A DNA stretch of 23,000 nt from a virus, in the IMG/VR virus record IMGVR_UViG_3300010430_000476, positions 1 through 23,000 of that record. One strand, written 5' to 3'. The translations under genes were made by a program, and so were the position numbers. The notes beneath the pieces were generated by a model, which worked only from the letters and a program-made list of their open reading frames with translations, ran no database searches and was not told the DNA's origin. This document shows, piece after piece, positions 17,809 to 22,893 of this stretch (its first letter is position 1; each line of letters opens with the position of its first letter).

Positions 17809-18283
17809 TCACAATCTCCGCTTCTACTATCTCGCCGGTATGACGATCGATGTTCCCTTCTTGGATCTGCCGATCGATAATATCGATCCACGTCCCCCGT
17901 CCAGCTACCGCGTGTGCGTGAAGATGCTGTGTCGGATCATCTCCGTAGCCACGATCCTTCCCTTGATGGCGAAGATAGAAGATCGTCGCTTTCGTGTTCT
18001 CTTTCCGGATCTGCTTGATCAGAGAATGCTCCGCCACATCTTTGTGCGACTCACGGATGTCTTTCAGCTCCTCTGCCACATCCGGCCACTTCTGGACGGC
18101 TCGCCGGACGGTGCGCTCGTTACATCCGAGAGACTGCGCCGCGTACGAAATGAAGCCGCCGTTAGCTCGAAGAGCTTGCTTGATTCGAGCTTTCGTTACT
18201 CGAACCGGCCGACCGACTTTGTTGCCGGTGATCTTGATCGGCATCTTTTCGGAAAGCGCTTTCTTAATTACGCTGGTACTCAT
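17771..18283 (-). CDS. terS: Terminase small subunit (DNA recognition)
   Basis: 170 residues just before the large terminase, overlapping it by 38 bases. Residues about 28-65 form a helix-turn-helix type DNA-binding region (ARIKQALRANGG, YAAQSLGCNERTVRRAV), followed by a helical oligomerisation stretch (EELKDIRESHKDVAEHSLIKQI) and ENTKATIFYLRHQGKDRGYG, a motif common in phage small terminases. The C-terminus is variable and Gly/Asn-rich. It recognises the packaging site and stimulates the large subunit. The ATG at 18283 overlaps the upstream TGA (ATGA), with GGAG 5 nt before. The GAAAGCGCTTTC palindrome lies in its first codons. Confidence 0.88.
   Translation of the reverse strand: MSTSVIKKALSEKMPIKITGNKVGRPVRVTKARIKQALRANGGFISYAAQSLGCNERTVRRAVQKWPDVAEELKDIRESHKDVAEHSLIKQIRKENTKATIFYLRHQGKDRGYGDDPTQHLHAHAVAGRGTWIDIIDRQIQEGNIDRHTGEIVEAEIVNGNGNGQKKLTP
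18252..18263. repeat. GAAAGCGCTTTC palindrome, copy inside the start of terS
   Basis: Exact core copy about 18 nt inside the small terminase gene. It is read in a different codon phase from the tape measure copy, so the shared sequence is not explained by a shared peptide. Confidence 0.55.
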
Positions 18284-18687
18284 GGAGTCTCCACCCCCAA
18301 TAGCGTAGCTTCGATGATCAGCCGACCACTGAGTACGACCTTCACCACTGAATCATCGGCATCGCTTTTGACTTGGATCTGCCAGCGATAGTTCGGCCCC
18401 GGTGTGATGTCAGTATTCTCCGCATCGAGATCCGCAGTCATTACCCCATTGACGGGGTCGGTTATGGTACATTCCACATCGAAGAAGTTCTCGGAGTTGT
18501 CGCTGGTGAACCGCTCCTTCGCTGTGAAGAACGCCTTCGTCCCTACCGTCTCCAACAGAGTTTGATACCCCGTGCCAAGATGAAACTCGATTCCAGCATA
18601 CGTGTTCTCTTGGTGGAGAGTAATGTTGTTCCCTCTTATCCCCGGCTGTGGGACAATTACAGTCCCCGGCTTCGGCTGTGTCGCCAT
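18280..18687 (-). CDS. Ig-like beta-sandwich virion protein, paralogue B
   Basis: 135 residues, all-beta in character. It aligns along most of its length with the next gene upstream: LHQENTY versus LHHQNTY, then an A-x-FT-x-K segment (KAFFTAKERFTS), a run of Asp/Asn, LDAENTDITPGPNYRWQIQVK against LTAADTTKLPPGLDVYWEMKVQK, and a closing VVLSGRLIIEATL against VIINGRVHVEPTL. The pattern 'polarised strand, LT..DT..LPPG.Y.W...V, GR..VEPTL' is that of BppU N-terminal / Ig-like domains on phage tail or head fibres (from memory). TGATG overlap links it to the upstream gene. It lacks the ~40-residue N-terminal extension of its paralogue. Function as a decoration or fibre subunit is inferred. Confidence 0.65.
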   Translation of the reverse strand: MATQPKPGTVIVPQPGIRGNNITLHQENTYAGIEFHLGTGYQTLLETVGTKAFFTAKERFTSDNSENFFDVECTITDPVNGVMTADLDAENTDITPGPNYRWQIQVKSDADDSVVKVVLSGRLIIEATLLGVETP

Positions 18688-19172
18688 CAGTCAATCCTCC
18701 TCAGTGTCGGCTCAACGTGAACTCTGCCGTTTATAATAACTCGGAAGAAGTCCGGAGCACTACCTTTTTGTACTTTCATCTCCCAATAAACGTCAAGGCC
18801 GGGGGGAAGCTTGGTGGTGTCTGCGGCCGTCAGATCAAACAGCAGTTCATTGTCATCTTCGCTCAGTTGCCCCCTGATATGAAAGTACGAATCCTCCAAA
18901 GCCGAATACCTCTTCACCGTGAAGTACACGTCTGCCGTGGTCCGGAGAAGGTACTGTGTCCACTCCGGAGATATTACCAACTTTAGATGCTTGTAGGTGT
19001 TCTGGTGGTGCAGGATCAGCGGCTCTTCCGGAGGAAGTTCGCCGTACACTTCTGGAACATCGATGATGATATCGAAGTTGAGCCATCCGAGGGTAGCAGT
19101 ATTGTACGTCGGCACTCCGTACTGAACGCCTTGCACTGCTACCAGAAACGGATCTATGTAGAGGAAGCTCAT
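18687..19172 (-). CDS. Ig-like beta-sandwich virion protein, paralogue A
   Basis: 161 residues. Residues about 50-160 form the same beta-sandwich domain as the following gene, with LHHQNTYKHLKLVI, a VYFTVKRY strand, LTAADTTKLPPG and VIINGRVHVEPTL. The first ~45 residues (MSFLYIDPFLVAVQGVQYG, LGWLNFDIIIDVP) are unique to it and could anchor it. The ATG at 19172 overlaps the TGA of the 594-aa gene (ATGA), with GGAGAG upstream. Together with its paralogue it sits between the fibre-like genes and the terminase, so it is likely to be part of a head or tail decoration, though its place on the virion is not shown by the sequence. Confidence 0.65.
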   Translation of the reverse strand: MSFLYIDPFLVAVQGVQYGVPTYNTATLGWLNFDIIIDVPEVYGELPPEEPLILHHQNTYKHLKLVISPEWTQYLLRTTADVYFTVKRYSALEDSYFHIRGQLSEDDNELLFDLTAADTTKLPPGLDVYWEMKVQKGSAPDFFRVIINGRVHVEPTLRRID

Positions 19173-20953
19173 TGTCTCTCCACCGTAGTCTCGTCGTTCA
19201 CTTCATCGATCGTGATCTCCTGCTCAATATCGACACCGGCCGTCCTGCGAGTCTTGCTGACCACCAGAGGCTTGTCGCGGTTGAGGCCGTGAATCTCGTG
19301 GATCTCGATCATCTTGTCAGCGATCCCGGCCAGTTCAGTGAATACGTCACCAACCTCCCAGATGGTTCCATGCGTAGCGACAACTCGTACAACCTCAACA
19401 TCACCGGAATCCGGAGGCACAGTAATGGCAACATCCACACCAGCCTCATCAAACGCAGATCCGATTATCTTGAGAGTGTATGCTCCTACTTTAGAGATAA
19501 GAGTAAACGGATCGAGAATCATAAGGCCAACTGTGTTGAAGTGATCTAAGATCTCTTCGAACTCAGCTATAGTGTACGCATTGGGATCGGCACTGCCATC
19601 TTCGACCTTGTGCATTAAGAGATTAAGATAAAGTGCAGAATCATACGCATAGTCGATTTGATCTTTTATATCCTGCACCGACATCTTGGTTTTCTCTGCA
19701 ACGATCGCCCTGACATGGTAGTTACCTTCAAACGGAAGATGGTTCAAACCCACACTGGCATCAGACATGGCATAATCAATAAAGTCGCTAACCCTATTGA
19801 TAAGATTGTTGGATACAAAATCATTGGCTCCAAGACTACGAATCGCGGCGAAGCGCATTGCTTGTTTCACTTGAGGGAAGCAATATGTGAAGTTAGCAAT
19901 CACCCAATTCGCATTCCCTTTGACCCACGTTCTCGTCTCATCTCTGCTCTGCGTTAGTTCGTCTCCAGTGAACGCATTGATCGGAATGACTAAACCTGAC
20001 TGACAGAGAGTATGAAGTTCAGCCTCCAACGCCCAGCCGGGGTTACCGAATTGATCAACTCCATCATCGGCTAGTTGCTCAACAAACGGAGTGTAGAAAG
20101 GAATACCTCGACCGGCCATCACCGGAAGAGCGTTGGTAGATAATCCAGCGAACGGTCTGAATCCGATCGTCGCAGTAGGAGTTGCCGCGTGATTATAGGC
20201 CACACGGTCAACAGTGATCCATGTATCGTGAATGGCGTTTGCTTCTATGTGAAAGCGGATGGCAGATATTGGATTGGCAAAAGTGCCTCCGTTTATTGAC
20301 TGAAAGAATCGATCCTGCATACACATTGTAATATGATTCCAGCCGGGAATAAGATACTCATGACCGACGTAAAACTCTACATAACTGGAGAACCCTGCAT
20401 CGTTGGCAAACATGACCGACATGTGATCCAAATGCTCTAGTTCCTCTTCTTCGATATAAGCCCAGAAACACATGGTAGTCATGAATGAAAAGTCCATCGG
20501 ACCGGGGAAGATAAGATCGCCTTCGCAAAAGCTTCCGGTGACATCGGCGAAGAAGCGAAGGCCGAACTCAGCTTCACCGAAAGCATCAGTCGCTCTGGTA
20601 TTGATGTAGTCCTTCGTGATCTGTCCGGTGACGTTCTGCCAATACGCCGGATCACGCCAGCCGGTGAACTCATAGCCGGGGAAATGACCAACGCCCTGCG
20701 GCCACGGCGGAGAACCGGGACCACCTACGGGCTTCAGCTTCCAACCGTTCTGGAGAACAAAGATCACATCGGTATAGAGTGCAAGAGAGATGTCCTCATG
20801 ACCACGAGCGCGGATCGGAATCTCACTTGGCATTCCAGCCTCGGAAGCCAGCCAATCCTGCATCTGGTCATATACTTCGCGCATCTCCACTTCCACTGTC
20901 CCTTCCGGAATCAGTATCAGCTTTTGCACCGGATCAAAAGTGTATGTTGCCAC
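19169..20953 (-). CDS. Fibre/adhesin-like protein with jelly-roll and degenerate polysaccharide-deacetylase-like domains
   Basis: 594 residues. Residues 1-75 resemble the start of the 557-aa protein upstream (strand, LILIPEGT, then a helix EVYDQMQDWLASEAGMPSEIPI, ending in NGW). Residues about 128-256 look like a carbohydrate-binding jelly roll (LRFFADVTG, PGWNHITMCM, ISAIRFHIEA, TWITVDRVAYN). Residues about 260-485 follow the NodB polysaccharide deacetylase layout: ATIGFRPFAG at the TFDDG position, ALPVMAGRGIPFYTPF, GWALEAELHTLCQSG, a Pro-containing strand NFTYCFPQ, LLMHKVEDG and FEEILDHFNTVG. The metal-binding Asp-Asp and His-x3-His residues are absent, so it is probably a binding rather than a catalytic fold. 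The C-terminus contains EIHEIHGLNRDKPLVVS, a motif I recall from other phage structural proteins. GTG start with GGAGAG. Confidence 0.6.
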   Translation of the reverse strand: MATYTFDPVQKLILIPEGTVEVEMREVYDQMQDWLASEAGMPSEIPIRARGHEDISLALYTDVIFVLQNGWKLKPVGGPGSPPWPQGVGHFPGYEFTGWRDPAYWQNVTGQITKDYINTRATDAFGEAEFGLRFFADVTGSFCEGDLIFPGPMDFSFMTTMCFWAYIEEEELEHLDHMSVMFANDAGFSSYVEFYVGHEYLIPGWNHITMCMQDRFFQSINGGTFANPISAIRFHIEANAIHDTWITVDRVAYNHAATPTATIGFRPFAGLSTNALPVMAGRGIPFYTPFVEQLADDGVDQFGNPGWALEAELHTLCQSGLVIPINAFTGDELTQSRDETRTWVKGNANWVIANFTYCFPQVKQAMRFAAIRSLGANDFVSNNLINRVSDFIDYAMSDASVGLNHLPFEGNYHVRAIVAEKTKMSVQDIKDQIDYAYDSALYLNLLMHKVEDGSADPNAYTIAEFEEILDHFNTVGLMILDPFTLISKVGAYTLKIIGSAFDEAGVDVAITVPPDSGDVEVVRVVATHGTIWEVGDVFTELAGIADKMIEIHEIHGLNRDKPLVVSKTRRTAGVDIEQEITIDEVNDETTVERQ

Positions 20954-20956
20954 TGG

Positions 20957-21145
20957 CTACTCTCCGAGTTGAGCCTTTGCCTGTTCATACACTTCATGCT
21001 GTGCAATCAGTCGTTCCCGTTCTCTCTTGTCCGCCTCCAGCTTGTCGATCTCTGCTTTCAAGATCGCAATGTTCTTGTCCAGTTGTCCAAGACTTGTTTG
21101 AAGCGCCTCCTTCTCGTACGGAGGTTTCGCCAGCTTGATGCTCAT
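20957..21145 (-). CDS. Small coiled-coil protein
   Basis: 62 residues, almost entirely a charged amphipathic helix: LQTSLGQLDKNIAILKAEIDKLEADKRERERLI with hydrophobic residues spaced in heptads. It has a strong SD (AAAGGAG) and ends in a TAG just before the GTG of the 594-aa gene, so it is a genuine translated gene. It may oligomerise or act as a fibre-assembly chaperone or linker for its neighbours. No family is recognised. Confidence 0.75.
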   Translation of the reverse strand: MSIKLAKPPYEKEALQTSLGQLDKNIAILKAEIDKLEADKRERERLIAQHEVYEQAKAQLGE

Positions 21146-21219: not shown

Positions 21220-22893
21220 TTACGTAACGATGCTGTCTACCGTCCTGATGGCCGCGACCGTCAGACCAGTGGCCGTCACCGTCCCTTCAACCTCGAAGGG
21301 GATGATTCCCTTCTTCCGCACTCTCACGAGAACCGGAATGTCGGTGCTCTGGATGAGAGAGTTGGAGATGGAGGTTGCAACAGTCTCCGCGTCGATGATC
21401 GGCACGTAGACCCCCTCCGAGTTATTGTAAGTCTCGCTGAGACCGCCCGGATGAGCCGTCGCGTCGAGAGTGAACGTGGAAGTATCCCACGAAGAGTACT
21501 GGTACAAGCCCTCACTTCCATCCGCTTTCACGATACGGAAGTAACCGGCCGCAGGGGTGTCGGAAGTGATGGCCTCCTGAACCACGAAGTCCGGATCTGC
21601 GGCGGCATTGCCAGCGGCGGCTCCGGTGTACGTGTCCTTCTCAATGTCGCCACCGGCTCCGGTGAGCGGGAAGACCGAAACCCTGTCGCCAGAAACGATC
21701 GCCGTGACGATGACCGAAACGAGGTTCGGGGGAATCTGGGTAGCACCGGAAGAGTCGATGAGCTGGAAGTTCTGAACATCCTGCGCATCGTAGTTCTCGA
21801 TCCAGATGCCGCGAGCGAGGAAGAGCTTTCCACCAGCGAAGGTGCCGAGCGGAGAAGCGGTAACCTCAACGTACGTGCCGGGGTCGGCAGAGAGGTACTG
21901 TTCTCCGTCCGTGCCGGGATCAGTGGACAGCGGAGTGGTGGCCCCTTCCATCGTGATGTATTTCAGCCACTCGTAGACCTCGGAGACCCGTGCGCCGTCG
22001 GCATCGATGACCGCATCGTAGTTCTGCGCACCGTTGCCGTTGTTCAGATCCTTGGAGTAAGGAGCGGCGGTATAGGCGATGGTCATGGAGTACGTGGTGC
22101 CATCGCCGTAATCCTCGACCGTGGCTTCCGCAGAAGCGTTGTTGGCATCGGCCTGAGTAGCGAGCGGAACCGGGGTCCGGCCACCAGCCGAGAGATCGAC
22201 TTCGAGGTGAGCGTACGTGTCGCCCCAGTTACGAGCGAAAACCGTAAGCTGTGCGCCGTCCAACTCCACTCCGAAGTGCGACACGCGAACGAGGATGTCG
22301 ATGTGACCGGTGCTCCACCATTCGGTGAGCCTCACGCCGTTCTGCACAACGTAGAACTGCGTACCGGCTTCGACCGCGCCCAGAGTGTAGATGTTGGCGT
22401 AGAGGTCTTCGCCGGTCTCATCGTCGGCCGCCGAAGTCCCGCTTCCGGTTCCCCCGGTGACTGCCACCACGGAACCACTGGCGATCGTGCCGGGAGCGTC
22501 CTTCCGGATGTACCACTCATCGACACCGTTGATGTGGATGAGTTGCCCAATATCGGCGGCATCATCGGTGATCCTCTTGCCGACATCCCCGGCAACCGCA
22601 CCGGCATCGGCGGTGAACTCGACCTCGTAGACCACACCGTTCAGACCGGAAGTCTGAATAGCGCCGCCGTCGATGAACTTGAGGGAATCCCAGTTCGTCC
22701 ACCAGCCGTTGATGAAGGTGTAATCGGTCGGAGTCTGCGCAGACATCGGAACAGGGTCGTCCATCTGCGCCAACTCATCGAACACGTCCATGATCCACGA
22801 GTACAGGGCGTTTGCACTGTAAATCGTGGCTCCCGAAGTGTGCAAGATGGTCTGCGTGTTGTAGTTGATGGTGAAATCATCTTGGATAGCCAT
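21220..22893 (-). CDS. Large beta-rich, Thr/Ala/Gly-rich virion protein, probable fibre or decoration protein
   Basis: 557 residues, acidic, rich in Thr, Ala, Gly and Asp, with few Lys and no cysteine that I can find. Residues 1-75 have the pattern DFTINYNTQTILHTSGATIYSANALYS, a helix, PVPMSAQTP, then FINGWWTNWDSL, which parallels the start of the 594-aa protein. The remainder alternates strands and loops (EVEFTADAGAVAGDVGKRI, GTQFYVVQNGVRL, FRIVKADGSEGLYQY) with no enzymatic motif. This fits a multidomain fibre, spike or head-decoration protein. The AGGAG SD precedes the ATG at 22893 by 9 nt. The hairpin after its stop could shield a heavily used transcript. Family not recognised. Confidence 0.7.
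   Translation of the reverse strand: MAIQDDFTINYNTQTILHTSGATIYSANALYSWIMDVFDELAQMDDPVPMSAQTPTDYTFINGWWTNWDSLKFIDGGAIQTSGLNGVVYEVEFTADAGAVAGDVGKRITDDAADIGQLIHINGVDEWYIRKDAPGTIASGSVVAVTGGTGSGTSAADDETGEDLYANIYTLGAVEAGTQFYVVQNGVRLTEWWSTGHIDILVRVSHFGVELDGAQLTVFARNWGDTYAHLEVDLSAGGRTPVPLATQADANNASAEATVEDYGDGTTYSMTIAYTAAPYSKDLNNGNGAQNYDAVIDADGARVSEVYEWLKYITMEGATTPLSTDPGTDGEQYLSADPGTYVEVTASPLGTFAGGKLFLARGIWIENYDAQDVQNFQLIDSSGATQIPPNLVSVIVTAIVSGDRVSVFPLTGAGGDIEKDTYTGAAAGNAAADPDFVVQEAITSDTPAAGYFRIVKADGSEGLYQYSSWDTSTFTLDATAHPGGLSETYNNSEGVYVPIIDAETVATSISNSLIQSTDIPVLVRVRKKGIIPFEVEGTVTATGLTVAAIRTVDSIVT

Follow-up and report, generated by a model that had tools for sequence, protein, structure and literature searches.

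Virion-borne deacetylases are thought to act by altering the sugar coat of the host. Can the NodB barrel of such a protein lose its chemistry and still serve a virus by holding a glycan that it does not cut? This question is raised by P0001, a protein of 594 amino acids encoded on the minus strand of the window, the whole 23-kb stretch of viral DNA analysed here, which comes from IMG/VR record IMGVR_UViG_3300010430_000476. The initial annotation had seen in it a possible catalytically dead polysaccharide deacetylase fold. Genes for the tape measure, tail tube, capsid, protease, portal and terminase lie on the same strand of the window, where, in the direction of transcription, a gene for a 557-aa protein precedes P0001 and the terminase and head genes come after it. 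The 557-aa protein (window 21220-22893, minus strand) has relatives in gp53, a structural protein of Synechococcus phage Syn5 (tblastn 7e-15; hhalign probability 97), and in an L003 protein of 811 aa. A charged, coiled-coil-like open reading frame of 62 aa, below the length cut of the ORF list, stands between the 557-aa gene and P0001 (window 20957-21145, minus strand), and two adjacent small proteins (window 18687-19172 and 18280-18687, minus strand) are mutual paralogues (hhalign probability 94), the second of them matching phrog_1084. When the N-terminus of P0001 was compared with those of the 557-aa protein and its L003 relative, the hhalign scores were 16.7 and 20.8, which are not significant, and the likeness to neighbouring proteins was set aside as too weak for use.

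By computation, P0001 is homologous to NodB domains. An HMM made from 125 NodB domains of viruses and bacteria, P0001 not among them, matches this protein with E = 2.6e-7 (27.7 bits; 2,807 ORFs searched); the significance rests on residues 385-477, while the N-terminal half of the barrel is colinear and adds little score. In hhalign, residues 255-494 align with 12 phage NodB domains over 188 columns with a probability of 91 and a score of 47.9, as against 21.0 for the highest of 200 shuffles. Both results bear out the order of NodB strands and motifs that the initial annotation had proposed. BLAST and curated HMMs gave no match to P0001: PF01522 (Polysacc_deac_1) did not match even at E 10 and the Pfam gathering score was not reached, and Pfam and PHROGs gave no meaningful match for P0001, whole or in parts. 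Phage, plasmid, viral-contig and genome-contig sequences searched directly with the full protein or with segments of it yielded no relative; its own record returned only the self-match, and TerL relatives and a 56-kb relative of a neighbouring gene contained no NodB match. A synthetic NodB consensus was used as bait only, to fetch real sequences, and the phage proteins that it fetched are mostly a jelly roll followed by NodB. A scan by the C-terminal half gave no loci with P0001 as the confirming row and eight with the NodB consensus in that role, seven of which are true and one of which, L024, is a false relative. For the C-terminal extension of P0001, nothing was found in Pfam and only chance-level matches in PHROGs and phages; a Klebsiella phage tail protein (T7-like tail gene) that aligned with it at E 4 was rejected as chance.

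The NodB barrel fold of CE4 is found in P0001 by AF2 as well as by the HMM. With a 77-row alignment, AF2 gave a model with a pLDDT of 75.8 and a pTM of 0.78, the block means being 84-96 around motif 1, 62 at motif 2 and 91-98 across the barrel's C-terminal half, with low confidence at residues 366-399 beside the groove; the single-sequence model was useless (pLDDT 38.7). Because the alignment is made of remote NodB homologues, the model cannot count as evidence separate from the sequence argument; judged on sequence, the NodB profile match stands without its help. In a search by Foldseek and VIA-align 2, the best solved match by far was 8qpg_TA, the turret head of Haloferax tailed virus 1 (HFTV1) (E 1.7e-11, Z 20.9, 335 residues), which is the only solved structure among the matches listed that convincingly matches both domains. 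CE4 domains came next (Z 11-13), including 2vyo, the second-best match, and 6hm9, whose title describes a CE4 pseudoenzyme with restored activity; CBM domains scored Z 10-12, with the jelly roll of P0001 matching CBM11, 16, 27 and 30. Bacillus phage G gp673 ranked first against the model in a library of predicted viral structures, and a profile search of PDB sequences found 8qpg across both domains (E 7.7e-15). The jelly-roll-like region suspected ahead of the barrel is present in the model and directly precedes NodB in one chain, which is the arrangement of the HFTV1 type; the jelly-roll HMM match to P0001 is weak (E 0.045), yet it is the top one of about 2,800 ORFs. A fold with no relation to the NodB barrel had been named beforehand as grounds for giving up the claim, and what AF2 and the fold search returned was a NodB barrel. 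The layout is given in Table 1.

Table 1. Features of P0001 in window coordinates.
Feature	Position	Strand	Basis
P0001 coding sequence (GTG start 20953, stop 19169-19171)	19169..20953	-	open frame, GTG, GGAGAG, stop overlapping ATG of next gene
N-terminal region, residues 1-94, possible virion anchor	20672..20953	-	weak in-register N-terminal similarity
Jelly-roll (CBM-type) domain, residues about 115-255	20189..20611	-	AF2 model matches CBM11/16/27/30-type domains
NodB (CE4-like) barrel, residues about 258-490	19484..20182	-	HMM, hhalign against shuffles, AF2, fold search
Motif 1 position, F265-R266-P267 (F-D-D in relatives)	20153..20161	-	alignments
Motif 2 position, N326-A-F-T-G330 (H-x3-H in relatives)	19964..19978	-	alignments
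Motif 3 position, F355-TYCF-P360 (FAYPYG in relatives)	19874..19891	-	alignment
Residues 361-399, longer than in relatives, adjoining mouth of old active site	19757..19873	-	alignment; model residues 272-305 with pLDDT <50
H448, motif 5 His	19610..19612	-	sole invariant column of alignment A5
C-terminal extension, residues 495-594, no relatives found	19172..19471	-	Pfam, PHROGs and phage searches

CE4 enzymes depend on an Asp pair from motif 1, a His pair from motif 2, the conserved Pro of motif 3 and one further His from motif 5 (PMC10967932). In P0001, the catalytic and metal Asp of motif 1 are replaced by R266 and P267 and the metal His pair of motif 2 by N326 and G330, while motif 3 reads CFP, with C358 in place of Pro and P360 in place of Gly; of the catalytic-type residues only H448, the His of motif 5, remains. 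The first readings of motifs 1, 2 and 5 were thus right within a residue. Each of the 96 aligned relatives has both Asp of motif 1, the first of the metal His and the His of motif 5. This set was fetched in part by patterns including FDDG and so is biased towards intact motifs; the seven true loci fetched via the C-terminal half alone are likewise intact at these positions. Ten columns are at least 90% conserved, of which P0001 matches three (H448 and two Gly), and no obvious replacement triad for the metal site is seen in the alignment. A barrel that has lost its catalytic base together with the Asp and the two His for the metal would bind no metal in the known CE4 way and would carry out no deacetylation by the CE4 mechanism. 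The alignments agree with the initial annotation that the CE4 site is dead, and P0001 combines a NodB fold with the loss of catalytic residues, as CE4 pseudoenzymes do.

With moderate confidence, we favour the reading that P0001 is a predicted virion surface protein with a CE4-dead NodB barrel behind a CBM-type jelly roll, and that it binds glycan without cleaving it. Its build is that of the HFTV1 turret head protein (THP) minus the chemistry, so the simplest reading is a protein that binds and does not cut. We infer that it is inactive and located on the virion, as a fibre or a capsid decoration. The N-terminal region could possibly anchor it there, while the jelly roll, and probably the old NodB substrate groove, would hold an acetylated glycan of the host surface. 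Such a lectin-like hold would be reversible, would leave the glycan unaltered and would aid adsorption.

The dead barrel might instead be a structural spacer or trimerisation block, in which case the jelly roll or else the C-terminal extension would bind the receptor and the old groove nothing. Motif 3 and the next loop are remodelled and lengthened and could close the groove, and the jelly roll is CBM-like by itself; on the other hand, the motif 5 His has been kept though nearly all other site residues are lost, which is odd for a mere spacer, and we regard this alternative as unlikely.

Loss without function, in a decaying gene or a chimeric or mis-assembled record, is improbable. The frame is intact over 594 open codons, with GGAGAG, read as a ribosome-binding site, 6 nt before the GTG and the ATG of the next gene overlapping the stop, and the flanking parts of this ORF remain in frame. 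The plus-strand reading of 19169-20953 is interrupted by stops; in the other reading frames, where a hidden NodB motif and a compensating frameshift were both looked for, there were stops and neither of the two. The loss of the motifs is not explained by a frameshift. What speaks for decay or chimerism is that the pseudo-deacetylase case is one sequence from a single metagenomic record, with a long tree branch and a GC3 of 0.52, below the 0.60-0.78 of its neighbours; the low GC3 is also consistent with a module acquired separately.

Since H448 is retained, a Cys stands where motif 3 would have its Pro, and two acids closely follow motif 2, one could also imagine an enzyme whose chemistry has changed, with a site rebuilt from H448 and C358, D331, E332 or N326. 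The base and metal Asp, however, are not replaced by any acid or His, both metal His are gone, and the standard Asp pair and first His persist throughout the 96 relatives; we consider such an enzyme quite improbable, and very improbable the particular version in which the barrel was rebuilt, not disabled, and H448 together with C358, D331, E332 and N326 would perform chemistry without the CE4 metal on a surface glycan at adsorption. That P0001 is an ordinary active CE4 deacetylase with misaligned motifs is scarcely credible: although the HMM draws little score from the N-terminal half of the barrel, no FDD, H-x3-H or YPYG string occurs anywhere in the NodB region, and five MAFFT alignments place motifs 1 and 5 alike, the later four agreeing on motif 2 too, so that the sequence contradicts it.

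If the non-cleaving reading of P0001 is true, it would suggest that a NodB barrel can by itself serve as a receptor-binding module, and a protein of this type would offer a direct test of the shares of binding and cutting in adsorption. The literature searched, which consisted mostly of papers available without subscription, contained no report of a phage virion with a dead NodB domain. The unusualness claimed at the outset holds for the combination, which is the new part; it does not hold for the two halves, since pseudo-CE4 proteins are known from bacteria and microsporidia (PMC10967932, PMC4505593), as are active-looking virion proteins with a jelly roll and NodB, as in HFTV1 (PMC12494034). 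Annotators should take care as well: P0001 escapes standard HMMs, and a fold-based label of "deacetylase" would mislead. Public labels of phage NodB tail proteins vary in any case, from minor tail protein, esterase and glucosaminyl deacetylase to major tail protein and hypothetical protein (L005-L016, L121-L126 and the jelly-roll plus NodB matches).

A trimer seated on a turret base protein counts among the features by which the HFTV1 type of virion protein, with a jelly roll and NodB, is recognised. Like P0001, HFTV1 gp31 (THP; PDB 8QPG) is a tailed-virus protein with a jelly roll and then NodB, and its gene sits among head and connector genes. It retains IDD and NHGYNH and binds Zn (PMC12494034), whereas P0001 is without these D/H ligands and has a C-terminal extension that is absent from THP. 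Its authors proposed that the jelly roll reversibly binds host glycans and that the NodB domain alters them (PMC12494034). In a maximum-likelihood tree, the group that includes P0001 (support 91/79) also contains HFTV1 THP, phage G gp673 and two proteins from viral contigs, but the branch of P0001 is long (3.16) and its placement unsure.

The two-domain order of P0001 recurs in actinophage minor tail proteins or "glucosaminyl deacetylases" (Gordonia phages, Arthrobacter Gorpy, Qui), in Bacillus phage G gp673 and in a TM7 phage deacetylase, and 59 of the 66 records matched by a jelly-roll plus NodB query span at least 80% of it. Unlike P0001, the actinophage, phage G and TM7 proteins read all retain D-D and the first metal His, and they have the His of motif 5 too. 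P0001 probably descends from an active virion deacetylase like the HFTV1 turrets, phage G gp673 and the actinophage minor tail proteins. Among viral and prophage-like jelly-roll plus NodB proteins, D-D and the first His are invariant and the second metal His is often altered (H-x6-H, HHxT[ND], or none), as in L017, L018, L019-L022, L028, L030, L035, L039-L043, phages Gorpy, TM7, Orchid and Qui, and others; to go by these sequences, their metal site may differ from that of textbook CE4.

Cellular counterparts of P0001 are the CE4 pseudoenzymes BA0150 (4M1B), E. cuniculi EcCDA (2VYO) and BA0330/BA0331, which have a NodB fold with motifs or activity lost (PMC10967932, PMC4505593); 2vyo has been described as probably inactive (PMC10967932), and BA0330/BA0331 are without activity (PMC4505593). 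P0001 differs from them in being viral and in having lost both motif 1 Asp and both His. The SGNH-type deacetylase tail proteins of phages (G7C, Possum gp66) are likewise virion proteins and act on O-acetylated surface glycans (PMC9569702), but their fold differs from that of P0001 and the enzymes are active.
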